A stretch of DNA of 64,000 bases from an uncultured Bacteroidales bacterium (GTDB lineage: Bacteria > Bacteroidota > Bacteroidia > Bacteroidales > Coprobacteraceae): contig CASFRL010000046.1 in NCBI GenBank assembly GCA_949297285.1, forward strand, positions 1-64,000, read 5' to 3'. The position numbers were made by a program, and so were the translations under genes. Positions 31,555 through 58,886 of the stretch are shown piece after piece; the stretch's first letter is position 1, and each line of letters starts with the position of its first letter. The notes below the pieces were generated by a model. It searched no databases. It had not been told where the DNA came from and saw only the letters and a program-made list of their open reading frames with translations.

Positions 31555-32979
31555 ATGGTAAAGAAAATCATACTCTTATCGTTGATATGTATAGCTCTAT
31601 CGAATGTATGGCTATATGCTCAGGATAAACGAGATATAAATCAAAAATACTTGGCACGTCCTTTACCGCAGGATTGGGCGGCCGATACGCTATTTTTGCA
31701 ACAACAGCCGGTGGAGGAAAAGTGGTGGACCGAGTTGCAAGACCAGCAACTGGATTCGATTATCGGGTTGGCGTTACAAAACAATCAAGATTTGCTCGTT
31801 GCTGCAGACCGTATTCGGGCAGCTCGTGCTGCATTAAGCATACAACAGGGATATTATTATCCGAATTTAAATCTTTCTGCCGGTTGGATAAAATCTCAAA
31901 GCAGCAGACAAACGGGTAGGGAATTCAATAATTCTCCGGCTGTCGGCCAACAATATGCTACCGGAGAACTCTCTACCAATTGGGAGTTTGATTTGTTCGG
32001 CTCTATCCGCAACCGTGTAAAATCGTCGAAAGAACAGTTTCGGGCTACACAAGAAGAATATAATGCTGTTCGGGTATCTTTAACCGCTCAAGTTGCAACG
32101 GCTTATGCCGATCTGAGAACTTTACAGCAAGAACTGCTGGTGGCACAAAAAAATATGGCTTCTCAACAAGCTATTTTACATATTACAGAAGTCCGTTATA
32201 ATACAGGACTTGCTTCCCAGTTGGATGTGTCTCAGGCAAAATCGGTTTTTTATAGTACAAAGGCTTCTATCCCTTCGATCGAAGCGGCGATTCGACAACA
32301 GATAAATGCATTGGCGGTTTTGTCCGGATTATATCCTTCCGATTTATATGCCACATTGAAAGATCCTCGGCCTATCCCGGATTATATGAAAATCGTTAAT
32401 ATCGGAATTCCTGCCAATTTGTTGCGGCAACGTCCCGATATACGTAGTGCCGAGCGTGCTGTCGCTGCGGCAGCGGCTTCGGTCGGCGCTGCCAAATCGG
32501 ATTATTTCCCCAAATTTTATTTGAAAGGAAGTATCGGTTTTGCTGCAAGGGATATGGATAAATTTTTTGATCATAATAGTCTGACCTATCAAATTGCACC
32601 GACTATGTCGTGGACTCTTTTTCAAGGGCGGCAACTGACACAGGCAACCCAAGAAGCAAAAGCTGTTTTAGATGAAAACATCAGACAATATAATCAAACC
32701 GTTCTGACAGCTGTTCAGGAAGTAGATAATGCCATGGCCTCATATAGTAACGCCATTAAGCAGGTCGTTGCCTTGCGGGAATTGGTAATACAGGGTGAGA
32801 TTACCCTTAAACTTTCTTTAGATTTATATAAGCGAGGATTAGCGACATTCCAGAATGTTTTAGATGCCCAACGCTCTTTGTTGAGTTATCAAAATTCTTT
32901 GGTTTCGGCACAAGGCGGAGCTCTCTCGTCTTTGATAGAATTGTATCGGGCTGTCGGTGGCGGTTGGCAAATGGATTAA
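31555..32979 (+). CDS. RND efflux outer-membrane channel (OprM/NodT family), system 1
   Basis: This 474-aa outer-membrane factor is the first gene of RND efflux operon 1 (channel, adaptor, pump). It has a signal peptide (1-22, ending LYAQ) without a clear lipobox, then two OEP domains. The family marks are EKWWTELQDQQLDSIIGLAL, NWEFDLFGSIRNRVKSSKEQ, LRQRPDIRSAERAVAAAAAS and DAQRSLLSYQNSLVSAQGGA. Length and repeats are normal. It is divergent from the aldehyde dehydrogenase gene, with 126 bp between. No regulator gene adjoins this operon, unlike system 2. Confidence 0.93.
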   Translation: MVKKIILLSLICIALSNVWLYAQDKRDINQKYLARPLPQDWAADTLFLQQQPVEEKWWTELQDQQLDSIIGLALQNNQDLLVAADRIRAARAALSIQQGYYYPNLNLSAGWIKSQSSRQTGREFNNSPAVGQQYATGELSTNWEFDLFGSIRNRVKSSKEQFRATQEEYNAVRVSLTAQVATAYADLRTLQQELLVAQKNMASQQAILHITEVRYNTGLASQLDVSQAKSVFYSTKASIPSIEAAIRQQINALAVLSGLYPSDLYATLKDPRPIPDYMKIVNIGIPANLLRQRPDIRSAERAVAAAAASVGAAKSDYFPKFYLKGSIGFAARDMDKFFDHNSLTYQIAPTMSWTLFQGRQLTQATQEAKAVLDENIRQYNQTVLTAVQEVDNAMASYSNAIKQVVALRELVIQGEITLKLSLDLYKRGLATFQNVLDAQRSLLSYQNSLVSAQGGALSSLIELYRAVGGGWQMD

Positions 32980-33014
32980 TGGATTAGATAAAAAACGAAT
33001 AATAATAGAATCCC

Positions 33015-34148
33015 ATGATAAAAAATGTTTTAAAAAAGAGACTCCCCATTTTGGTAATAATCGGATTTGTATTTTTTTCTTGTACGTCGAAGAAATCTGA
33101 CCAGAAAATGTCTGCCCCGGAAATATCGGTTGCATATCCGATTGTGAAATCGGTGATATTGCACAAAACATATCCCGGTTATTTATCGTCGGCAAATACT
33201 GTCGATCTGGTGTCGCGTGTCAATGGTTATTTGCAAAGTTCTTCGTTTACTGCTGGAGCAATGGTCAAAAAAGGTCAATTATTGTTTGTGATAGAACCCA
33301 CCTTATATGAAGATGCTGTGAAAAGAGCCGAAGCCGGATTGAAGAATGCTCAGGCAAGTCTCGATTACGCTGAAAATAATTATGTGCGTATGAAAGAAGC
33401 TTCTCGGAGCGATGCTATCAGCGAAATCGATTTGATTAAGTCGGCTACTCAGTTGATTAGTGCCAGATCAAGTGTAAAAGATGCTGAAGCTCAACTGGAA
33501 ACGGCAAAAACCAACTTGGGATATTGCTATATACGTGCTCCTTTTTCAGGTCATATATCGAAGGGAATGTATAGTGTTGGTAGCTATATCGGAGGGGAAG
33601 GACAGGCAACGAAATTGGCAACGATTTATCAAGATGATAAAATGAATGCCTATTTTAATATCGAAGATAATCAGTATTTGCAGATGTTGGCATTTTCTTC
33701 TAAAAAAAATGACCAGGAACGTTTACCCGATGAAGTAGAGATTATTTTCCAATCGCCGTTATCCCGACCCTATATAGGAAAATTGAATTATCTATCTCCG
33801 AATATTGATCTATCTACCGGAACATTAAATATTCGGGCCGAGATTGAAAATCCGGATAATGAGTTGAAAGATGGCCTGTATGTAAATATACGTTTGCCCT
33901 ATGCTAAACAAGATAGTGCTATTTTGGTAAAAGATGCTTCTATTGGTACCGATCAGTTGGGTAAATTCCTTTATGTCGTAAATGATTCAAACCGTATAGC
34001 TTATCGCCATATCGTGACGGGCGAATTATTTTCGGATACTCTTCGATTGGTAAAATCCGGATTGAATCCAAACGATCGCTATGTGACGAAAGCCTTGTTG
34101 AAAGTACGGGAAGGTATGGAAATAAAGCCTTTGTTAGAGAAAGATTAA
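33015..34148 (+). CDS. RND efflux periplasmic adaptor, system 1
   Basis: This 377-aa membrane-fusion lipoprotein has a lipobox in GFVFFSC (Cys about residue 23). The lipoyl halves appear as TVDLVSRVNGYLQ and LGYCYIRAPFSGHIS, separated by a short helical hairpin (about 95-160), then a beta-barrel domain with the STGTLNIRAEIENPDNELKD block. It couples the pump (34182) to the channel (31555). It lies 35 bp after the channel gene and 33 bp before the pump gene. Confidence 0.93.
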   Translation: MIKNVLKKRLPILVIIGFVFFSCTSKKSDQKMSAPEISVAYPIVKSVILHKTYPGYLSSANTVDLVSRVNGYLQSSSFTAGAMVKKGQLLFVIEPTLYEDAVKRAEAGLKNAQASLDYAENNYVRMKEASRSDAISEIDLIKSATQLISARSSVKDAEAQLETAKTNLGYCYIRAPFSGHISKGMYSVGSYIGGEGQATKLATIYQDDKMNAYFNIEDNQYLQMLAFSSKKNDQERLPDEVEIIFQSPLSRPYIGKLNYLSPNIDLSTGTLNIRAEIENPDNELKDGLYVNIRLPYAKQDSAILVKDASIGTDQLGKFLYVVNDSNRIAYRHIVTGELFSDTLRLVKSGLNPNDRYVTKALLKVREGMEIKPLLEKD

Positions 34149-34181
34149 TTGCATATATAGATCGAATAAAAAACAAAAAGC

Positions 34182-37100
34182 ATGATATCTAAATTTTTTA
34201 TAAACCGTCCGATTTTTGCCACTGTATTAGCTTTGCTTATGGTATTAGCGGGAATTGTAGCTCTCGAATCGCTACCGGTTGCCCAATTCCCGGATATAAC
34301 TCCTCCGACTGTGCAGGTTTCTGCTGTATATCCCGGAGCAAGTGCTGAAACGGTGGCTCGCACAGTTGGTACACCGATCGAGGAACAAGTCAACGGGGTG
34401 GATGGCATGATTTATATGAGTTCTTCTTCTTCCAGTTCGGGACAATATACGTTGACGGTTACTTTTGAGGTAGGTACAGATGTCGATATGGCGGCTGTCT
34501 TGGTACAGAATAGAGTCAATATTGCGCAGGGAAATCTTCCGGAAGCAGTAATACAACAAGGAATTGTTACCAAAAAGCAATCTACAAATATCGTGATGTT
34601 TTTATCGCTTCAGTCAGATGATCCGATGTATAATGGATTATATCTGTCGAATTATGCAAGTCTTAATCTGACCGACCAGCTTTCTCGATTGCCGGGGGTT
34701 GGTGCAGTGACCGTATTCGGTACGGGCGATTATAGCATGCGTGTGTGGCTCGATCCGGAGATTATGCGTATCCGGAAATTAACGCCGTCCGACGTATATA
34801 GTGCCATACAATCTCAGAATATGGAAGTCTCTGCCGGAACAGTCGGTGAACCGCCTTTGGATAAAAAAGAGGCTTTTCAGTTTACATTGACGGCAAGAGG
34901 ACGATTGACAACTCCCGAAGAATTTGGCAATATTGTCATTAAAGTTTTACCCGATGGACGGTATCTGCGATTGCGGGATATTGCCCGTATCGATAGAGGA
35001 AGTGCTTCCTATAACGTTACTTCGACACAAAACGGGAAACAAGCGGCAGCAATCGCTATTTATCAATTACCGGGATCTAATTCTCTCGATGTGGCCAAAA
35101 ATGTCAGAGAAAAGATGAAAGATCTCGAAAAATACTTGCCGGAAGGTGTCCATTACGAAGTCGTGTTAGATACAACCGAATTTGTAACGGCCTCGATCGA
35201 TGAGGTTTTGGTTACTTTTGCCGAAACTACATTATTGGTAGTGCTCGTCATCCTGCTTTTTTTACAGAGTTTCAGAGCTGTGATTATTCCTTCTTTGACA
35301 ATACCTGTTTCTCTTATCTGTACGTTTGCCGTGATGCATCTGTTCGGATTTTCGATAAATACATTGACCCTTTTCGGTTTGGTATTGGCAATTGCCATAG
35401 TGGTAGATGATGCCATTGTCGTGGTCGAAAATTCATCGCGTCTTCTTGATACGGGTAAATATACCAATAAAGAGGCGGTGACATTAGCTATGGAAGAGAT
35501 TACTGGCCCTGTGATAGGTGTGGTACTTGTATTATTGGCCGTGTTTATTCCTACTGCTTTTATTAGTGGAATTACAGGCGAACTTTACAAACAGTTTGCA
35601 TTGACTATTGCAACCGCTACGGTTTTTAGCGGAATTAATTCTTTGTCATTGACTCCGGCATTATGTGCCCTGTTTCTGAAGCCGGCTAAAGTTCCTAAAT
35701 TTTTCTTATATAAAGGGTTTAATAAGATATACGATAAAACTCTCGGGGCTTATGTAAAAACGATAACCTATTTCCTTCGTAAGCCGTTATTTACAATGAC
35801 TGTTTTTGTTTTGTTGTCTATTGGGGCGATTTGGTTGTTTTTGCGTTGGCCTACCTCTTTTATTCCTCAAGAAGACCAAGGTTATTTTGTCGTGTCGGTA
35901 CAGTTGCCGAATGCCGCAAGTTTGCAACGGACCGAAGCGGTTTCCCATAAGGTTATGGAAATTCTAAATTCTTTCCCTGAAGTGCGCACCTATTTGTGTA
36001 TCAATGGATTTTCTATGATGCAAGGAGCAAGTGCTTCGAACAGTGCAACTTTTTTTGTCATGCTTAAAAATTGGAATGACCGGAAAACCAAAGATGAAAG
36101 TGTATTTGCTGTCGTAAATAGATTGAATGCCGAAGCTTCATCTATTCAGGAAGCTGTTATTTTTGCAGTTAATCCGCCTGCAATATCGGGTATGGGGGTG
36201 AGTGGAGGTTTGCAATTTGAATTGGAAGATAGAAATAATTTGGGAACTACGGCACTCCAGAATGCTCTTTCTGCTTTATTGGAACAAGTTAGAACCGAAC
36301 CTGCCATACTGACTGTTAATTCGATGTTTCAAGGCAATACCCCTCAATATTTTTTAAATATAGATCGAGATAAGGTCAAGATGCAGGGATTGACGTTGAG
36401 TGATGTTTTTTCGACGCTTTCATACTATATGGGTTCGGCCTATGTAAATGATTTTGTCCAATTCGGGCGTGTTTATCAGGTTAAATTGGGCGCAGATGCC
36501 GATAGCCGTACGGTAATAGGAGATGTACTGAAATTAAGTGTCCGCAATCAGAATGGAGATATGGTACCGTTTTCAGCATTTACGACATTGGAAGAACAAT
36601 TAGGGCTCAATTTGGTGAATAGGTATAATATGTACTCTTCGGCTTCTATTACAGCCATTACGACGCCGGGATTCAGTTCGCAGCAAGGAATTCAGGGAAT
36701 GGAGAATTTGACAGAGCGGGTATTGGGCGATTCATTTGGTTATGATTGGACGGGTGAAGCTTTTCAGGAAACACAGTCGAGCTCTTCTGTCTCTTTAATT
36801 TTTATCTTGGCTATTATCGTTGTTATTTTAGTATTGGCTGCTCAGTATGAGAGTTGGACAAGTCCTATTGCGGTTATTCTCGGATTGCCATTTGCCTTAT
36901 TGGGTGCGGTCCTTGGTTGCATATTGTTCGGTTTGCCTATCAGTATTTACAGCCAGATTGGTATTATCCTTTTAATAGCTTTGTCTGCAAAAAATGCTAT
37001 CCTGATTGTTGAGTTTGCGATCGATTACCGGAAAAAGGGTGAATCGATTACAGAGGCGTCGATAGAAGCCGGCCGGGTACGTTTGCGCCCGATTTTAATG

Positions 37101-37325
37101 ACATCGTTTGCCTTTATATTGGGGGTAATGCCGCTTATATTTGCAACCGGAGCAGGAGCGTCGAGCCGAATATCATTAGGTACGGCAGTCGTTTTCGGTA
37201 TGGCGGTAAATACCTTATTAGGGACATTGTTTATTCCTAATTTTTATCATCTGATGCAAACCATTCAGGAGAAATTTAAAAAGAGATCCTGCTCATCTCA
37301 AGATGTGGCTGAAAATAAGAGATAA
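34182..37325 (+). CDS. RND efflux pump, HAE1 (AcrB-like) family, system 1
   Basis: This 1047-aa proton-driven inner-membrane pump has the canonical start [20 protein letters not shown], a first periplasmic pore domain with [19 protein letters not shown], and TM4 with the proton-relay Asp pair in [20 protein letters not shown]. The second half begins around residue 520 ([19 protein letters not shown]) and ends with [20 protein letters not shown]. All twelve helices and the Asp pair are present, so it looks functional. Substrates are probably hydrophobic drugs, detergents or bile acids; the sequence does not say which. Its stop is followed at once by a 44-bp palindromic terminator. Confidence 0.95.
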
Positions 37326-49093: not shown

Positions 49094-49813
49094 TTATTCA
49101 TTACGGGTTAAAAATTCGTATATTTCTTTTGCATATCGTCTGCCTATGGGGATAGGATATAATGACCCTTTCAGCCATATTTCTTGTTTTGTGAACTTTT
49201 GTATTTGATGTATGGGTACAAGAAATGAGCGGTGTACTCTTAAAAACGTATTTTCTGGAAGCATTTTGTGGATCGTTTTGATGTTGAGTCTTGAGATTAC
49301 GCTATTTCCGTTTGTCCGATATATTTTGCAGTAATTCTCTAAAGCCTCGATATAGAAAATATCGGATAGATGTATGTTTATATTATTATATTCTTGCTTG
49401 ACGACAATGGTTCCTTGACTGTTTCCCGAAATTGTCGCTTTGTTCAATGTCGAAATGTGTCGCATTGCTTTTTCGATAGCTCGTTCAAAACGGTCATAAG
49501 CGATAGGTTTGTGAAGAAAGTCTACCGCATCAAGGTCAAATCCGTTAAGAGCATATTGGGCGTGTGCCGTAGTGAAAATTAAACAACATTTATCCGGAAG
49601 CTGTTTAGCAATTTCCAATCCGTTCAAGCCATTCATTTCAATATCGAGAAACACAATATCCGGTTTATTGTCTTTTATTTCTTCGAGGCCTATACGAGGT
49701 TCGCAGAATGTTTTCAATTCAATATTCCCTTTCCTCTCGCAAAATTGTTTAATGACCAATAATGCAATAGGTTCGTCATCGATAGCAATACAATTAATTT
49801 TTCTCATAGTCAA
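49094..49813 (-). CDS. LytTR-family response regulator
   Basis: This 239-aa regulator has an N-terminal receiver domain: the acidic pocket in AIDDEPIALLVIKQF, phospho-Asp in DIVFLDIEMNGLNGLEIAK (about residue 56), and Lys in DFLHKPIAYDRF. The C-terminal LytTR DNA-binding domain (about residues 135-239) includes IHLSDIFYIEALENYCKIYR and FLRVHRSFLVPIHQI. It overlaps the sensor kinase gene by 4 bp. LytTR proteins bind pairs of 9-10-bp direct repeats about 21 bp apart, and exactly such a repeat lies upstream of this operon at 50945-50985, between it and RND operon 2, so the pump operon is the probable target. Confidence 0.94.
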   Translation of the reverse strand: MTMRKINCIAIDDEPIALLVIKQFCERKGNIELKTFCEPRIGLEEIKDNKPDIVFLDIEMNGLNGLEIAKQLPDKCCLIFTTAHAQYALNGFDLDAVDFLHKPIAYDRFERAIEKAMRHISTLNKATISGNSQGTIVVKQEYNNINIHLSDIFYIEALENYCKIYRTNGNSVISRLNIKTIHKMLPENTFLRVHRSFLVPIHQIQKFTKQEIWLKGSLYPIPIGRRYAKEIYEFLTRNE

Positions 49814-50865
49814 GATAATTGTATAGTAAGTCGGGTTAGAAACTCATTTTTGTAGTTATCTCTTTCGGTAATAAGCGTAAAAAGTCCGGGATAGAGTAGT
49901 TGTAACCGTTTGCGGCAATTTTCGATACCGATAGAAGATTCTCCACTTTTTTTCTCTTTCATAATCGAGTTTTGAGTTTTAAAGAGTAAAGTACCATCTT
50001 CTACTATAATACGGATAAGGATTGTGCAGTCTTCTGAAGATGATGAGCCGTATTTAAAAGCATTTTCTACAAACGTAATCAGTATCATCGGAGGAATAAG
50101 AACATGTTCTTTATCTGTGCGGCTTTCAAAAATCACTTTTGTATGGTGATTTAACCGGAGTTTTTGCAATTCTACATACTGTTGGATATATTCGATTTCG
50201 CTGTTTATGTCAATTTTATCTATTGAAGTATTGTCATACATATATTTCAGTATGTTTGAGAATTTTATGAATGCCGATTCGGTTTGATCCGATTTTGTAA
50301 TAACCAGGCCATATAGCGTGTTGAGCGTATTGAATAAAAAGTGAGGATTTATCTGAGCTTTATATACTGCTAATTGAGCTTTGTTTTTTTCGGCTTCTAT
50401 TTCCTGCTTTTGTAAGATCTGGCGGAATAGCTCAAATGCCACTTCGATTGCCAAACTTAGGCCTGATACGATCAAGAAATAGAACCATACGGTTTGGGCG
50501 TGTAAATGCCTTCGAAGACCTATCGGCAACTTTGATCCGATTTGGTCGGATATAGGAAAATGTGTAAGCAATATTGTAATCAGTATCAATAAGGCAAGCA
50601 GGATGGCAATATGACCGTATTTTTTTCGTAAAAAGAGAGAGGGTATGTTCGATTTTCTATAAATGAAATAGAGCATATAGAGGTAAACGATAAAAGTCAC
50701 GGAAAGAAACGGTTGAACTTTGATCCATTTGTCGATAGGTATCAATAAAATAATCAAAGGTAAAATGATCAGGCAAAAAAGCAAATCTACATAACGGATA
50801 ATTTGTGGATATTGGGTAAATGTGTGGTGAATGGTATTTTTATTTTTGTTTTTTTTTAACAGCAT
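49810..50865 (-). CDS. LytS/YehU-type sensor histidine kinase
   Basis: This 351-aa membrane kinase has four predicted helices in the first 165 residues (e.g. LLFCLIILPLIILLIPID, IAILLALLILITILL), a coiled linker, and the His_kinase domain with phospho-acceptor His in INPHFLFNTLNTLYGLV. The ATP-binding region follows (LIPPMILITFVENAFKYGSS; the G box reads SSIGIENCRKRLQLLYPG). The extracytoplasmic loops are short, so it probably senses a ligand in or at the membrane. It is paired with the LytTR regulator, with ATGA overlap. The promoter is at 50905-50935. Confidence 0.93.
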   Translation of the reverse strand: MLLKKNKNKNTIHHTFTQYPQIIRYVDLLFCLIILPLIILLIPIDKWIKVQPFLSVTFIVYLYMLYFIYRKSNIPSLFLRKKYGHIAILLALLILITILLTHFPISDQIGSKLPIGLRRHLHAQTVWFYFLIVSGLSLAIEVAFELFRQILQKQEIEAEKNKAQLAVYKAQINPHFLFNTLNTLYGLVITKSDQTESAFIKFSNILKYMYDNTSIDKIDINSEIEYIQQYVELQKLRLNHHTKVIFESRTDKEHVLIPPMILITFVENAFKYGSSSSEDCTILIRIIVEDGTLLFKTQNSIMKEKKSGESSIGIENCRKRLQLLYPGLFTLITERDNYKNEFLTRLTIQLS

Positions 50866-50904: not shown

Positions 50905-50935
50905 CAAAGATATATATTTGACGGTATATTGCAAA
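50905..50935 (-). promoter_or_regulatory. Promoter of the LytTR two-component operon
   Basis: On the minus strand TTTG (50935-50932) and TATCTTTG (50912-50905) are 19 bp apart, a near-perfect Bacteroidota promoter. The direct repeat at 50945-50985 starts 9 bp upstream of its -33 box. Confidence 0.75.
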
Positions 50936-50944
50936 AAAAGAAAG

Positions 50945-50985
50945 TTGCCGTTTGTCAACACATTCTTGTCGTTTGTCAACACATT
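50945..50985. promoter_or_regulatory. Paired 20-bp direct repeats, candidate LytTR operator
   Basis: The two copies are 50945-50964 and 50966-50985, identical in 19 of 20 positions, with a period of exactly 21 bp. Each holds CGTTTGTCAACACATT. The core GTTTGT preceded by CC or TC fits the published LytTR half-site form closely (AgrA/ComE-type sites). The pair ends right at the -33 position of the plus-strand promoter (TATTTTTG, 51009-51016) and starts 9 bp upstream of the minus-strand promoter, so it could control both the kinase/regulator operon and the RND operon. Confidence 0.7.
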
Positions 50986-51008
50986 TATCGTATATAGTAA
51001 AATCCTTT

Positions 51009-51016
51009 TATTTTTG
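51009..51016 (+). promoter_or_regulatory. -7 box of RND operon 2
   Basis: TATTTTTG fits TAnnTTTG, with TTTA (50984-50987) as a weak -33 box 21 bp upstream. A poor -33 element next to an activator-type repeat is what an activated promoter would look like. Confidence 0.5.
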
Positions 51017-51074: not shown

Positions 51075-52181
51075 ATGAAATACGTCATTATTCCCATCTT
51101 GTCAGCTCTTGTGCTACTTGCTTCGTGTAAATCGCAATCGAAGGAACAAACCGGTGCTAAGTATAAAACATTGCGCGTGGAATTTAGTAATCAGACTCTG
51201 AAAAGAGATTATACGGCAAAACTTCAGGGACGTCAATATGTTGAAATACGTCCTCAAGTGAGCGGTATAATTACGAACATCTGCTTGAATGAAGGTGATC
51301 TTGTTCATAAAGGACAAGTACTTTTTATTATCGATCAAGTTCCTTACAAAGCCGCCCTCGAAACCGCTGTTGCTAATGTAAAGAGTGCCGAATCTAAATT
51401 GGCTACGGCAAAACTAACCGCCGAAAGTAAAGAGGAATTGTTTAAGGAAAATGTCGTTTCAGAATTTGATTTGCAAACGGCTCGTAATAATCTTGCCGAA
51501 GCTCGGGCTGCTCTTGCCTTGGCTCGGGCCGAAGAGATCAATGCCCGCAATAATCTCTCTTATACTGAAGTAAAAAGTCCGGTGGATGGAGTTGCCAGTA
51601 TGATCCCTTATCGTGTGGGTGCTCTTGTTAACAGTAGCATTACCAAACCCTTGGTTACTGTTTCTGATGATAGTGAGATATATGCATATTTTTCGTTAGA
51701 TGAAAACCAGATATTAGATCTTATACAGCAATACGGTTCGTTGCAGAAAACTATGGAACAAATGCCGAATGTAGAGTTGATCCTTAGTAACGGAAAGGTG
51801 TATAAATATCCCGGAAAAATCGACGCAATCAGTGGAACTATCGAAGAGAGTACGGGAGTAGTAAGCATTAGGGCATCATTTAAAAATCCAGACGGGTTAT
51901 TGCGCAACGGTGGTAGTGGGAGAGTGGTCATCCCTACTTCTCTTGACAACGTGATCGTTATTCCGCAAGCCGCCACTTCTGAATTGCAAAACCGTATTTT
52001 TGTATATAAAGTGGTTGATGGTATAGCCAAGTCTACCCCGGTTGAAGTGTATCGTTTGAATAACGGTACGGAATATGTCGTTGAGACAGGGCTGGTTCCC
52101 GGTGATATTATCATTGCCGAGGGTGCAGGCCTTATGCGTGAAGGGACAGTGATCGATACCAATGCTTCAACTAATGAATAA
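51075..52181 (+). CDS. RND efflux periplasmic adaptor, system 2
   Basis: This adaptor lipoprotein of about 368 aa starts at ATG 51075 (MKYVIIPILSALVLLASC, Cys18 lipobox). An in-frame upstream ATG (50952) is rejected because it would lie inside the operator and promoter. The lipoyl halves are RQYVEIRPQVSGIITNICL and LSYTEVKSPVDGVASMI around a helical hairpin with LFKENVVSEFDLQTARNNLAE; the beta-barrel block is EESTGVVSIRASFKNPDGLL. It is the first gene of operon 2, 8 bp before the pump gene. The order adaptor, pump, channel differs from operon 1 (channel, adaptor, pump). Confidence 0.93.
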   Translation: MKYVIIPILSALVLLASCKSQSKEQTGAKYKTLRVEFSNQTLKRDYTAKLQGRQYVEIRPQVSGIITNICLNEGDLVHKGQVLFIIDQVPYKAALETAVANVKSAESKLATAKLTAESKEELFKENVVSEFDLQTARNNLAEARAALALARAEEINARNNLSYTEVKSPVDGVASMIPYRVGALVNSSITKPLVTVSDDSEIYAYFSLDENQILDLIQQYGSLQKTMEQMPNVELILSNGKVYKYPGKIDAISGTIEESTGVVSIRASFKNPDGLLRNGGSGRVVIPTSLDNVIVIPQAATSELQNRIFVYKVVDGIAKSTPVEVYRLNNGTEYVVETGLVPGDIIIAEGAGLMREGTVIDTNASTNE

Positions 52182-52189
52182 TCCGTATT

Positions 52190-55100
52190 ATGAAAATTAA
52201 AACATTTATTGACCGACCTATTTTATCGGTCGTTATATCCGTCCTTATTTTTATTGTCGGATTGATAGGGCTTTCGCAATTGCCTATCGAGCAATTTCCC
52301 GAAATTGCCCCTCCAACAGTTAGTGTTTCTGCTACCTATACCGGAGCAAATGCCGAAACCGTACAAAAGAGTGTTGTCGTTCCTCTCGAAGAAGCGCTAA
52401 ACGGCGTTGAAAATATGATGTATATGACTTCTTCTGCTACCAACTCTGGATCGGCAAGAATTACCATTTATTTCCGACAAGGTACCGATCCCGATATGGC
52501 AACAGTGAATGTTCAAAACCGTATCGCTACGGCACAAGGTTTGCTGCCGGCAGAGGTAACCCGAAGCGGTATCAATGTGCGGAAACGTCAAACCAGTAAC
52601 ATAAAGGCATTGGCACTTTATAGCCCGGATAATTCGTTCGATGAACGATTCTTGAACAATTATCTGAAAATTAACATTGAACCTCGTTTATCGCGTATTG
52701 CCGGGGTAGGAGAGGTCAATGTAATGGGGGCCGACTATTCGTTGCGTATTTGGCTCGATCCGGGTAAAATGGCTAAGTACAATTTGATACCTTCCGATAT
52801 TACGACCGTGCTTAGTGAACAAAATTTAGAGACCTCTACGGGTACATTGGGAGCCGAATCTAAAAATACATTTCAATATGTTTTGAAGTATCGCGGACGT
52901 TATGAAGAAGAAAAAGATTATGAAAATCTGGTCATTCGTTCGTTGGAAGGCGGTGAAGTGCTTCGCCTGAAAGATGTGGCCCGTGTCGAATTGGGATCGA
53001 GTTCTTATACTTATATCGGAGAAGTAAACGGACATCCGGGATCTAACTGTATGATTGCTCAAACTTCAGGTTCCAATGCTAATGAAATTATAGAAGAGAT
53101 CGACAAGGTTGTTGCCGAAATTTCGGAAAATCTGCCTAAAGGTATGGAGCTGGTCGACTTGATGAGTTCAAAAGAGTTTCTCGACGCTTCTATCCAAAAT
53201 GTTGTCAAGACGCTTGTCGAGGCAATTATATTGGTAATTCTGGTAGTTTATGTCTTCTTGCAAAGTATGCGTTCAACCTTTATTCCGGCAGTTTCTATCA
53301 TCGTTTCTCTGGTGGGAACATTTGCATTCTTGTATGCGATGGGATTTAGTTTGAATATGTTGACTCTATTTGCATTGGTTTTGGTGATCGGTACGGTGGT
53401 CGATGATGCCATTGTCGTGGTCGAAGCCGTTCAAGCCAAGTTTGATGAAGGTTATAAATCATCCTATCGGGCAACAGTCGATGCAATGGGGGGAATAACT
53501 TCTGCGTTGGTCACAACGACATTCGTCTTTATGGCCGTTTTTATTCCTGTTAGTTTTATGGGAGGTACGACAGGTACTTTCTATACACAGTTCGGATTGA
53601 CGATGGCTGTTGCTGTGGCAATTTCTTTGGTTAATGCTTTGACATTAAGTCCGGCACTTTGTGCGCTGATCATGACGCCGCACGAAGTCTCTTCAGATGG
53701 AAAGAAAATGAGTTTTTCTTCTCGTTTCCATATTGCATTCGACAGTGCGTTCCAACGATTGGTATTGAAATATAAAACCGGCGTTTTCTTTATGTTGAAA
53801 CGAAAATGGTTGGCCTTAGTATTGTTGTTGGTTGCCTTTGTCGGTTTATTCCTGTTGATGAAAACAACCAAGACCGGGCTTGTTCCGCAAGAAGATATGG
53901 GAACGATCTTTGTTGATATACGCACCTCTCCGGGAAATACATTGGAAGAAACGAAAACTATTGTAGATGAGGTAGATAAACGTATAAGCACAATTCCTCA
54001 GATTAGAATGTTTTCAAAAATAACCGGTAACGGAATGATTAGTGGACAGGGATCTTCGAATGGTATGTTTATCGTTCGGTTGAAACAGTGGGACGAACGG
54101 AAAGGAAAAGAAAACGAAATAAATGCTGTTATCGATGAAATATACCGTCGGACAGATGATATATCTTCGGCTCAGATCATGGCATTTGCCCAGCCTATGA
54201 TTCCGGGATATGGAGTAAGTAGCGGTTTTGAAATTTATGTGCAAGACCAGAAAGGTGGTTCGATAGAAGATTTGTTGAAATATACCCGGCAGATGATCGA
54301 AAAATTGAATGCACGCCCCGAAATCGGAAGAGCGACAACATCGTTCGATACGAAATTCCCACAATATAAGGTCGAAGTCGATGCTGCACGATGCAAACGT
54401 AACGGCGTTTCTCCGACAGATGTATTGACAACGTTGTCTATCTATGTGGGTGGTAATTATGCTTCGAATATGAACCGTTTCTCGAAACTTTACCGGGTAA
54501 TGGTACAAGCATCTCCCGAATTCCGTTTGGATACGGAGGCGCTGAACAATATATTCGTTCGAAACTCAGACGGAGAAATGTCACCCATCAGCCAATATCT
54601 GACCTTGACCCGTGTGTACGGTTCGGAAACCTTGACTCGTTTTAATCTTTTCTCGGCAATATCCGTGAACGGTGCGCCGGCAACAGGATATAGTTCTGGA
54701 CAAGCTATTCAGGCCGTGCGTGAAGTGGCAGAAGAAACATTGCCTGTCGGTTATGGTTTCGAATTTGGAGGTATGTCCCGGGAAGAATCTTCGACAGGAA
54801 ACACGACCGTTTTGATATTTGTAATATGTGTAGTATTCATCTATTTGATATTGTGTGCTCTTTATGAGAGCCTCTTTATACCTTTGGCCGTTATCTTGTC
54901 CGTGCCTTTCGGATTGGCCGGAAGTTTCCTTTTTGCCAAGATGTTCGGACTGGAAAACAATATCTATTTGCAGACCGGGTTGATCATGTTGATCGGGTTA
55001 TTGTCTAAAACAGCAATCTTGTTGACAGAGTATGCCTCTGAACGTCGTCATCAAGGTATGAGTATAACACAAGCCGCCGTATCGGCAGCCGAAGTACGTT

Positions 55101-55330
55101 TGCGCCCGATCTTGATGACATCGTTGACGATGATTTTCGGTATGTTGCCGTTGATGTTTGCTTCGGGTGTAGGAGCTAACGGAAATATTTCTATCGGTGT
55201 CGGAACTGTCGGTGGTATGTTGATCGGTACTATTGCCCTGTTGTTTATTGTGCCGGTTTTGTTTATCGTCTTCCAGTATATTCAAGAGAAAGTCATGCCG
55301 CAACGTAAAATATCGAAATTAGAAGAATAG
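52190..55330 (+). CDS. RND efflux pump, HAE1 (AcrB-like) family, system 2
   Basis: This 1046-aa proton-driven pump starts with MKIKTFIDRPILSVVISVLI and has the pore-domain motif SATYTGANAETVQKSVVVPL. TM4 holds the Asp-Asp pair in [20 protein letters not shown]. The second half includes LFLLMKTTKTGLVPQEDMGT and the terminal [20 protein letters not shown]. All expected helices are present. It is a distinct paralogue of the pump at 34182, as seen from the pore residues and the EENLPKG-type loop. Cotranscribed with adaptor and channel, it is the likely effector of the LytTR system. Confidence 0.95.
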   Translation: MKIKTFIDRPILSVVISVLIFIVGLIGLSQLPIEQFPEIAPPTVSVSATYTGANAETVQKSVVVPLEEALNGVENMMYMTSSATNSGSARITIYFRQGTDPDMATVNVQNRIATAQGLLPAEVTRSGINVRKRQTSNIKALALYSPDNSFDERFLNNYLKINIEPRLSRIAGVGEVNVMGADYSLRIWLDPGKMAKYNLIPSDITTVLSEQNLETSTGTLGAESKNTFQYVLKYRGRYEEEKDYENLVIRSLEGGEVLRLKDVARVELGSSSYTYIGEVNGHPGSNCMIAQTSGSNANEIIEEIDKVVAEISENLPKGMELVDLMSSKEFLDASIQNVVKTLVEAIILVILVVYVFLQSMRSTFIPAVSIIVSLVGTFAFLYAMGFSLNMLTLFALVLVIGTVVDDAIVVVEAVQAKFDEGYKSSYRATVDAMGGITSALVTTTFVFMAVFIPVSFMGGTTGTFYTQFGLTMAVAVAISLVNALTLSPALCALIMTPHEVSSDGKKMSFSSRFHIAFDSAFQRLVLKYKTGVFFMLKRKWLALVLLLVAFVGLFLLMKTTKTGLVPQEDMGTIFVDIRTSPGNTLEETKTIVDEVDKRISTIPQIRMFSKITGNGMISGQGSSNGMFIVRLKQWDERKGKENEINAVIDEIYRRTDDISSAQIMAFAQPMIPGYGVSSGFEIYVQDQKGGSIEDLLKYTRQMIEKLNARPEIGRATTSFDTKFPQYKVEVDAARCKRNGVSPTDVLTTLSIYVGGNYASNMNRFSKLYRVMVQASPEFRLDTEALNNIFVRNSDGEMSPISQYLTLTRVYGSETLTRFNLFSAISVNGAPATGYSSGQAIQAVREVAEETLPVGYGFEFGGMSREESSTGNTTVLIFVICVVFIYLILCALYESLFIPLAVILSVPFGLAGSFLFAKMFGLENNIYLQTGLIMLIGLLSKTAILLTEYASERRHQGMSITQAAVSAAEVRLRPILMTSLTMIFGMLPLMFASGVGANGNISIGVGTVGGMLIGTIALLFIVPVLFIVFQYIQEKVMPQRKISKLEE

Positions 55331-55353: not shown

Positions 55354-56721
55354 ATGAAAAAAATAATTATATGTATATCGATAGCGGTAGGAATAAGCGG
55401 ATGTTCAATATATCGCACTTATAAACAGCCCGATATGTCAGCCGTTACAGATAATCTTTACCGCCAATCTTCAGAACAGTCCGATACGACATCTATGGCA
55501 ACTCTTTCGTGGAGAGAAATATTCACGGATTCGTATTTGCAGCAACTTATCGATACCGGATTGAAGAATAATACCGATCTGAATATTGCCCGGTTAAAAG
55601 TGAAAGAAGCAGAAGCTTTGCTTATGACTTCCCGGCTTTCTTATTTGCCATCCATATCGTTCACTCCGCAAGGCACATTAAGCAAAGCTGAAAAATCCAG
55701 TCTTAACAAAACGTATGATCTGGCCCTTTCTGCAAATTGGGAGGTTGATATATTCGGACGCATAACCAATGCGAAAAGAGAAGCTAAAGCTGCATTGGAA
55801 CAGAGTGATGCGTATCGTCAAGCCGTACAGACTCAATTGATTGCAACCATTGCCAACAGTTATTATACGTTGTTAATGCTCGACGACCAGCTTGAAATCA
55901 GCCGATATACGGCCGAAAACTGGAGCGAAAATCTACGTGTAATGAAAGCGTTGAAAAAAGCGGGTCAGACAACCGATATGGCGGTCGCTCAAACCGAAGC
56001 GAGCAAACTCTCGGTAGATGCATCGTTACTTTTAATAGAGCAACAGATTGCCGAGACAGAAAATGCTCTTTCTGCATTATTAGGGTCTGTTCCGGGGGCA
56101 ATACCTCGCTCAACATTAAAACAACAAGAGTTTCCCGAATCACTCGCAGTAGGAGTCCCATTACAGTTGTTGCAACGTCGTCCCGATGTCCGCCAAAGCG
56201 AGGCTGCTTTAGCCGCAGCATTCTATGTTACGAATCAGGCACATTCGGCATTTTATCCTTCGATTACATTAAGTGGATCTGCCGGATGGACCAATGCTGC
56301 AGGGGCTGTTGTGACAAACCCCGGTCAGTGGCTCTTTTCAGCCGTTGGTTCATTGGTTCAGCCTCTCTTTAATAAAGGACAGAATATTGCTAATTTAAAA
56401 GTTGCAAAGGCTCAGCAAGAAGAAGCCTTGCTCTCTTTCCGTCAAAGTTTATTGGATGCAGGTACCGAAGTGAACGATGCGTTGTTACAATGGCAGACAG
56501 CCCGTGAACGTCTTACGTTGAATCAGCAGCAAATTGCGTCGTTAGAATCGGCCGTTCGCAGTTCAGAATTACTGATGCGTTACAGCTCGCAAAATTATCT
56601 TGAAGTCTTGACGGCACGACAGACATTGCTGCAAGCCGAATTAGATGCTGTATCTGCCCGGTTCGACGAAATACAAGGTGTCATTAACCTTTATCATGCC
56701 TTGGGAGGTGGCGCAAATTAA
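55354..56721 (+). CDS. RND efflux outer-membrane channel (OprM/NodT family), system 2
   Basis: This 455-aa outer-membrane lipoprotein channel has a lipobox in AVGISGC (Cys17). The OEP family blocks are TLSWREIFTDSYLQQLIDTG, NWEVDIFGRITNAKREAKAA, LLQRRPDVRQSEAALAAAFY and VLTARQTLLQAELDAVSARF, ending with NLYHALGGG, the usual NodT C-terminus. It starts 23 bp after the pump stop. A terminator follows at 56751. Confidence 0.93.
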   Translation: MKKIIICISIAVGISGCSIYRTYKQPDMSAVTDNLYRQSSEQSDTTSMATLSWREIFTDSYLQQLIDTGLKNNTDLNIARLKVKEAEALLMTSRLSYLPSISFTPQGTLSKAEKSSLNKTYDLALSANWEVDIFGRITNAKREAKAALEQSDAYRQAVQTQLIATIANSYYTLLMLDDQLEISRYTAENWSENLRVMKALKKAGQTTDMAVAQTEASKLSVDASLLLIEQQIAETENALSALLGSVPGAIPRSTLKQQEFPESLAVGVPLQLLQRRPDVRQSEAALAAAFYVTNQAHSAFYPSITLSGSAGWTNAAGAVVTNPGQWLFSAVGSLVQPLFNKGQNIANLKVAKAQQEEALLSFRQSLLDAGTEVNDALLQWQTARERLTLNQQQIASLESAVRSSELLMRYSSQNYLEVLTARQTLLQAELDAVSARFDEIQGVINLYHALGGGAN

Positions 56722-58463: not shown

Positions 58464-58886
58464 CTAATCATCGTTGTCCATATCATTATCCTGATAATCG
58501 TAATTGTCTTGGTAATAATCGTAATTGTCTTGGAAATAGTCGTAATTGTCCTCTTGATAGAAATTTTCCTCATTTTGAAAATAATAGTCCTTTTCATTTA
58601 GATAATCGTCTTCCTCTTCTTGAAAATAATCATCATTTTCTTCTTGATCTATTTCTTCTTCTTGAAGATAATAATAATAATCTTCTTCTTCCTCTTTTTC
58701 CTCTTCCTCTTCCCTATGTCGATGCGTTCTCACTCTTTGAGATAAATATTCATTTTCCATATAATCATCTTCGTCAGATGGATAGCCCATAAAATGGTTG
58801 AATACTTGATGCACACGGGGATTATTATTATAGGCTATTTTCATAACTAAAAATAATATAGATCCTATTAAGATACCCCAAAACAT
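58464..58886 (-). CDS. Membrane-anchored, extremely acidic Tyr/Asn-rich protein
   Basis: This 140-codon frame has a convincing N-terminal membrane anchor (MFWGILIGSILFLVMKIAYN), a short conserved-looking stretch (RVHQVFNHFMGYPSDEDDYM), and then about 85 residues made almost wholly of Glu, Asp, Tyr, Asn and Gln, with repeats such as DNYDYYQ, DNYDYFQ and EEEDYYYY. Codon-level repeats (GATAATTACGATTA-type units) show expansion by slippage. No family is recognised. The anchor and clean start argue for a real gene. Composition suggests a disordered, metal- or basic-protein-binding cytosolic tail, which is inference. It is transcribed toward fetB and lies downstream of ssrA on the same strand. Confidence 0.6.
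   Translation of the reverse strand: MFWGILIGSILFLVMKIAYNNNPRVHQVFNHFMGYPSDEDDYMENEYLSQRVRTHRHREEEEEKEEEEDYYYYLQEEEIDQEENDDYFQEEEDDYLNEKDYYFQNEENFYQEDNYDYFQDNYDYYQDNYDYQDNDMDNDD

Follow-up and report, generated by a model that had tools for sequence, protein, structure and literature searches.

A conserved 21-bp-period direct repeat, very probably a LytTR-type operator, between a kinase-regulator pair and a divergent RND efflux operon in Bacteroidales

Analysis of a 64-kb stretch of DNA (64,000 nucleotides, here called the window) revealed a direct repeat at positions 50945-50985, located in a 0.2-kb gap between a kinase-regulator pair and a divergent adaptor-permease-channel operon. On the basis of its sequence and genomic context, this repeat is very probably the operator of the adjacent LytTR regulator, which would activate the efflux promoter and probably also regulate its own synthesis. 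Features of the locus are as follows:

49094..49807, minus strand: LytTR response regulator (Response_reg plus LytTR DNA-binding domain; profile search)
49810..50865, minus strand: LytS/YehU-type sensor histidine kinase (PF06580; profile search)
50905..50935, minus strand: kinase-regulator promoter, -33 box TTTG at 50935-50932, 19 bp, -7 box TATCTTTG at 50912-50905
50947..50964, plus strand: putative LytTR-type half-site 1, GCCGTTTGTCAACACATT (profile from 34 orthologous intergenic regions)
50968..50985, plus strand: putative LytTR-type half-site 2, GTCGTTTGTCAACACATT, 21 bp downstream of half-site 1 (same 34-region profile)
50986..51016, plus strand: efflux operon promoter, TATC at 50986-50989 in the -33 position, 19-bp spacing, -7 box TATTTTTG at 51009-51016
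51075..52181, plus strand: RND efflux periplasmic adaptor with lipoprotein-like N-terminus MKYVIIPILSALVLLASC (TIGR01730, 248.7 bits)
52190..55330, plus strand: RND efflux permease, HAE1/AcrB-like (PF00873, E 5.5e-300; TIGR00915 above cut-off)
55354..56721, plus strand: outer-membrane efflux channel, NodT/OEP family (TIGR01845 above cut-off; PF02321)

Direct reading bore out an earlier note, which had described two 20-bp copies with one mismatch at 21-bp spacing: ttgccgtttgtcaacacatt (50945-50964) and ttgtcgtttgtcaacacatt (50966-50985) are identical at 19 of 20 positions, with a start-to-start distance of 21. Such a 19/20 match at period 21 occurs at two places in the window, the second being a coding heptad repeat at about 58492-58498, and 50945-50985 is therefore the sole non-coding repeat of this kind. 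When periods from 15 to 40 other than 21 were examined over the whole 64 kb, none exceeded 16/20. The core kept across species amounts to 18 bp per copy (50947-50964 and 50968-50985), and the exact half-site pair with no mismatches is found once in the window. In leave-one-out scoring the pair reached 53 bits versus a shuffled maximum of 12.5, and the sequence model matched the window at 50946-50986 with an E-value of 3.2e-13. The other period-21 DNA repeat of the window stems from a minus-strand reading frame (58464-58886) with acidic and tyrosine-rich heptads (DNYDYFQ).

Conservation upstream of orthologous operons, on which the earlier note had staked its reading, was observed. Eighty relatives of the regulator were drawn from a bacterial and archaeal genome collection by protein similarity of the regulator alone, and in about half of them the adjoining kinase diverges from an adaptor-permease-channel operon homologous to that of the window. 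The pattern GYCGTTYRTCANCACWTT was present twice at period 21 in 34 of the 36 pump-adjacent intergenic regions, and 21 was the best spacing in 34/37 pump-adjacent loci when scored by leave-one-out. When each locus was compared with 100 dinucleotide shuffles of itself, 62 of 81 outscored the best shuffle, with all 62 sites in the same orientation. Similarly, a motif-free count gave period 21 as the sole peak, with 14 loci showing at least 11/14 matches versus 0-4 at other periods. The double site between divergent HK-RR and MFP-RND operons is thus present across Bacteroidales families, many gut bacteria having it at this position, and the pair is retained in orthologues whose regulators are 53-70% identical, whereas the remaining intergenic DNA is poorly conserved. 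Within Coprobacter, no other part of the gap is as well kept as the repeat, even though the regulators are down to about 62% identity.

No site is seen in about one locus in four, mostly in loci that are distant or lack a divergent pump. Three pump-adjacent loci of one regulator clade (L094, L133 and L136) have no clear pair at 21; two of the three score best at a spacing of 20, a natural spacing variant. Among viral contigs, only two remote relatives of the regulator were found. Three loci labelled Lachnospiraceae, Roseburia or Bacillota (L093, L099 and L102) nevertheless have Bacteroidales-like HK-RR loci and are probably mislabelled or contaminated metagenome bins. In the regulator tree, the window groups with 27 other rows, and 27 of these 28 adjoin a divergent adaptor gene, the grouping having modest support (87/84). 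In this tree, the copies from Coprobacter are not nearest to one another, which hints at a transfer of the locus between lineages.

The conserved half-site contains two blocks, CGTT and CANCAC, about one helical turn apart. With 18 bp it exceeds the usual 9-11 bp, a length that would be explained if each monomer contacted two successive major grooves. The broad 9-bp LytTR consensus is [TA][AC][CA]GTTN[AG][TG], to which GCCGTTTGT fits by eye at 8/9 and GTCGTTTGT at 7/9 positions, a partial fit that is usual for a family without a strict consensus. The lack of a strict shared consensus among LytTR sites has been pointed out before (PMC4847170), and as a general rule LytTR operators consist of 9-11 bp direct repeats with 11-13 bp between them (PMC4847170), often located 10 bp upstream of the -35 box (PMC6193735, PMC4847170). 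In agreement with the repeat rule, the putative operator of the window has direct orientation and a period of 21 that is kept across loci. The opening nine bases of the copies (GYCGTTYRT) leave a gap of 12 bp between them, with a further 9 bp from the second to the efflux -33 position; if GYCGTTYRT represents the classic half-site, spacing and promoter distance are those of the published LytTR geometry. At both promoters the site occupies the LytTR position just upstream of the -35/-33 box, and this placement is fixed in orthologues.

The kinase promoter is a perfect Bacteroidota-type promoter (TTTG-19 bp-TATCTTTG), and the conserved half-site lies 11 bp from its -33 box. Counted from the start of the 20-bp repeat at 50945, the distance to TTTG at 50935-50932 is 9 bp, just as the earlier note had it. 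Also correct was its placement of the repeat's end at the efflux -33 position, where TATC directly abuts the repeat and no TTTG is found. Its description of this -33 box as weak holds for the window (TATC) and only moderately for the orthologues: among their efflux promoters, 2/19 have a perfect TTTG, while 14/19 keep at least 3 of the 4 letters. Compared with these efflux promoters, kinase promoters more often have a perfect TTTG (7/21), the difference being modest. Among the 34 orthologous regions, 17 have an efflux -7 box TAnnTTTG that ends 31-32 bp downstream of the operator, and 18 have the kinase -7 box 42-43 bp away on its upstream side. When redundancy was removed, 12 of 22 loci had the efflux -7 box TAnnTTTG at 30-33 bp, versus 0.08 expected from shuffles. 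In six loci (L071, L073, L084, L090, L112 and L123) the efflux -7 box was located at 42, 43 or 52 bp and not at 31-32 bp, that is about one or two helical turns further out, and at some of these loci the operator itself scores weakly.

The regulator contains a PF00072 (E 2.6e-18) and a PF04397 domain (E 8.9e-18), both above curated cut-offs. Its residues 187-193 read FLRVHRS, of which F, R, H, R and S are invariant in four species, and fit the FhRhHRS motif implicated in DNA contact by LytTR proteins (PMC4227749). Together with the conserved double site and a geometry of the published type, these properties support the interpretation of the repeat as a LytTR-type operator that the earlier note had put forward. 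The best NCBIfam match of the regulator was BtsR (NF008677) with 105.7 bits and an E-value of 2.4e-30; with an equivalog cut-off of 246 this score falls far short, and an assignment as BtsR was rejected. For the kinase, about four membrane helices are predicted within the first 148 residues, and no sensor domain was recognised. On the other side of the gap, TIGR01730, TIGR00915 and TIGR01845 all scored above cut-off in one operon, indicating a HAE1-type RND tripartite system. The window has one more tripartite RND operon, at 31555-37325 (channel, adaptor and permease genes), without operator and without an adjoining LytTR regulator.

The specificity of the site was studied with a sequence-only model. 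In all four Coprobacter genomes with a gene for the regulator it gave a single strong match of 37-46 bits, always at the locus described here, and no further match in a Coprobacter genome exceeded 19 bits; a fifth, smaller Coprobacter genome (G003, 2.2 Mb) lacks the regulator and gave no strong match. None of 393 Bacteroidales genomes had more than one match. Between HK-RR and adaptor gene lie the 12 top-scoring matches and a weaker one; the remaining seven (20-26 bits) lie elsewhere. At least five of these genomes (G105, G392, G202, G108 and G177) overlap with the training of the profile, which was built on related sequences, whereas G276, G335, G184 and G089 are not among the contigs that supplied profile sequences. 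The window's own genome encodes eight RND permeases and two LytTR proteins and has one operator, which argues that the site belongs to this kinase-regulator pair rather than being a common feature of RND pumps or of LytTR proteins. Also, several HK-RR loci without an adjoining pump (e.g., L104, L124 and L134) keep the site, and it therefore goes with the regulator and not with the pump. A multi-gene regulon was rejected at the present sensitivity, as the trained model finds only one strong site, and a degenerate pattern with up to 3 mismatches was genome-wide no commoner than its reversed control (25/28 versus 25/24). Within the sensitivity of the search, the circuit is dedicated, with one operator per genome, which lends support to the self-contained circuit that the earlier note had proposed.

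Some relatives of the locus differ in what adjoins them. In three loci of 5.2-5.8 kb (L125, L129 and L134) a related HK-RR pair with a similar operator diverges from a gene for a small secreted protein (QIPDQRHPMQPRDN...) that resembles stress proteins of the periplasm, a hint that further targets may lie in the envelope. A large putative outer-membrane protein is encoded divergently from the HK-RR pair of L104. In L075 (4389-5942), two flavodoxin-like genes lie between adaptor gene and kinase; the double site, in degraded form, remains next to the pump genes, and the kinase side has only a GTCGTTTA remnant.

How the locus might work can be outlined as follows. The kinase, a membrane protein with four helices, would sense an envelope or chemical signal and phosphorylate the regulator; gene order and domains were observed and from them we infer the phosphotransfer. 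Period, orientation and conservation of the repeat suggest that each of the 18-bp direct half-sites would be occupied by one regulator monomer; with two helical turns from one half-site to the next, both monomers would sit on the same face of the helix. The bound regulator would then touch RNA polymerase at the efflux promoter and turn on the adaptor-permease-channel operon. Activation is predicted since this promoter combines a good -7 box with a -33 position that abuts the operator and lacks TTTG, the sign of regulation being read from promoter geometry only. As the same operator also precedes the -33 box of the kinase-regulator promoter, by 11 bp, autoregulation is probable and would most likely be positive. 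The sensor would most likely switch on just this one pump and perhaps itself too.

The same regulator and operator might instead repress the efflux operon, or repress their own promoter while the pump is activated, and we consider this unlikely. The right edge of the operator does touch the efflux -33 position, where a bound protein could block polymerase, and AgrA represses one promoter from a site downstream of that promoter (PMC4227749). However, published LytTR direct repeats near promoters mostly activate, from a few to about 10 bp upstream of the -35 box (PMC6193735), and in the window the nine-base segment of half-site 2 stops 9 bp short of the efflux -33 position. Neither -7 box is overlapped by the operator, and the poor efflux -33 box is what would be expected of an activated promoter.

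RND pumps are often under the control of TetR repressors, and each copy might accordingly be a binding site for a helix-turn-helix dimer, for example a TetR-type repressor encoded elsewhere; GTTTGTCAAC looks palindromic, and both window copies contain GTT-N4-AAC. Across species, however, the right arm is unconstrained at its middle letter (A 0.44, C 0.28, T 0.25), and the profile lacks self-complementarity (best 0.35 versus self 0.59), indicating that conservation is directional and arguing against a palindromic site. As the operator in addition stays with the HK-RR genes where no pump adjoins, we regard a dimer site as very improbable. Still harder to defend, with hardly any probability left to it, is a chance occurrence or a recent functionless 21-bp tandem duplication. 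The window copies are nearly identical, and within-locus identity was slightly elevated (11.9 versus 11.3 of 18 after permutation; 285 of 10000), a covariation such as recent duplication or conversion could give; concerted change of the half-sites is striking by eye in four Coprobacter species and weakly significant over 22 loci. In contrast, retention of the pair beside regulators only 53-70% identical, at a fixed distance to both promoters, is conservation that already refutes a functionless duplication. An operator that is bound by the adjacent LytTR regulator and activates the efflux promoter is the reading we prefer.

In Escherichia coli, the target of YpdB is an MFS transporter that is not encoded beside its regulator. 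The YpdA/YpdB system and the window have in common a LytS-type kinase, a LytTR regulator, a repeat with a period of about 21 bp and a single transporter target. YpdB recognises the direct repeat GGCATTTCAT with a period of about 21 bp, and yhjX is its single target (PMC4847170); its half-site differs from that of the window, where one shared intergenic operator lies between divergent operons. In BtsS/BtsR, also from E. coli, BtsR provides the best curated model for the window regulator, but its target differs. Streptococcus mutans HdrR/BrsR operators consist of 9-bp direct repeats 12 bp apart (period 21) upstream of the promoter and mediate autoregulation (PMC6193735). Direct repeats at period 21 just upstream of a promoter are therefore common to HdrR/BrsR and the window, whereas HdrR/BrsR employs a membrane inhibitor and another half-site sequence and the window has a histidine kinase, an 18-bp half-site and a divergent RND pump. 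In Staphylococcus aureus, AgrA acts on direct repeats upstream of the divergent promoters P2 and P3, which have suboptimal promoter geometry (PMC4227749). LytTR direct repeats at two divergent promoters are shared with the window; however, Agr has separate repeat pairs for P2 and P3 and a peptide signal, while the window has one pair between both promoters and no peptide signal system. In the Bacteroides examples of LytTR sites, the repeats are 11 bp long, are spaced by 11 bp and lie 11 bp upstream of TGTA-19 bp-TATCTTTG (PMC6193735).

Our literature search found no report of this site, nor any of an RND pump under LytTR control in Bacteroidota. In Flavobacterium johnsoniae, a LytTR mutation was seen beside tolC mutations and its contribution was called unknown (PMC10197871). 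For an intrinsic multidrug-type pump of gut Bacteroidales, the locus offers a candidate DNA site together with a candidate regulator and target, and the conserved profile makes the site recognisable in other genomes. More broadly, and with about equal weight for and against, the locus may represent a widespread Bacteroidales module in which one operator with 18-bp half-sites, phased to two divergent promoters and the sole genomic site of its regulator, induces an RND pump together with its own sensor, moves between families as a unit and has been re-wired to other envelope genes in some lineages. The natural variants, with a spacing of 20 or with the -7 box one helical turn further out, bear on the contact between LytTR regulators and RNA polymerase at the unusual Bacteroidota promoter.
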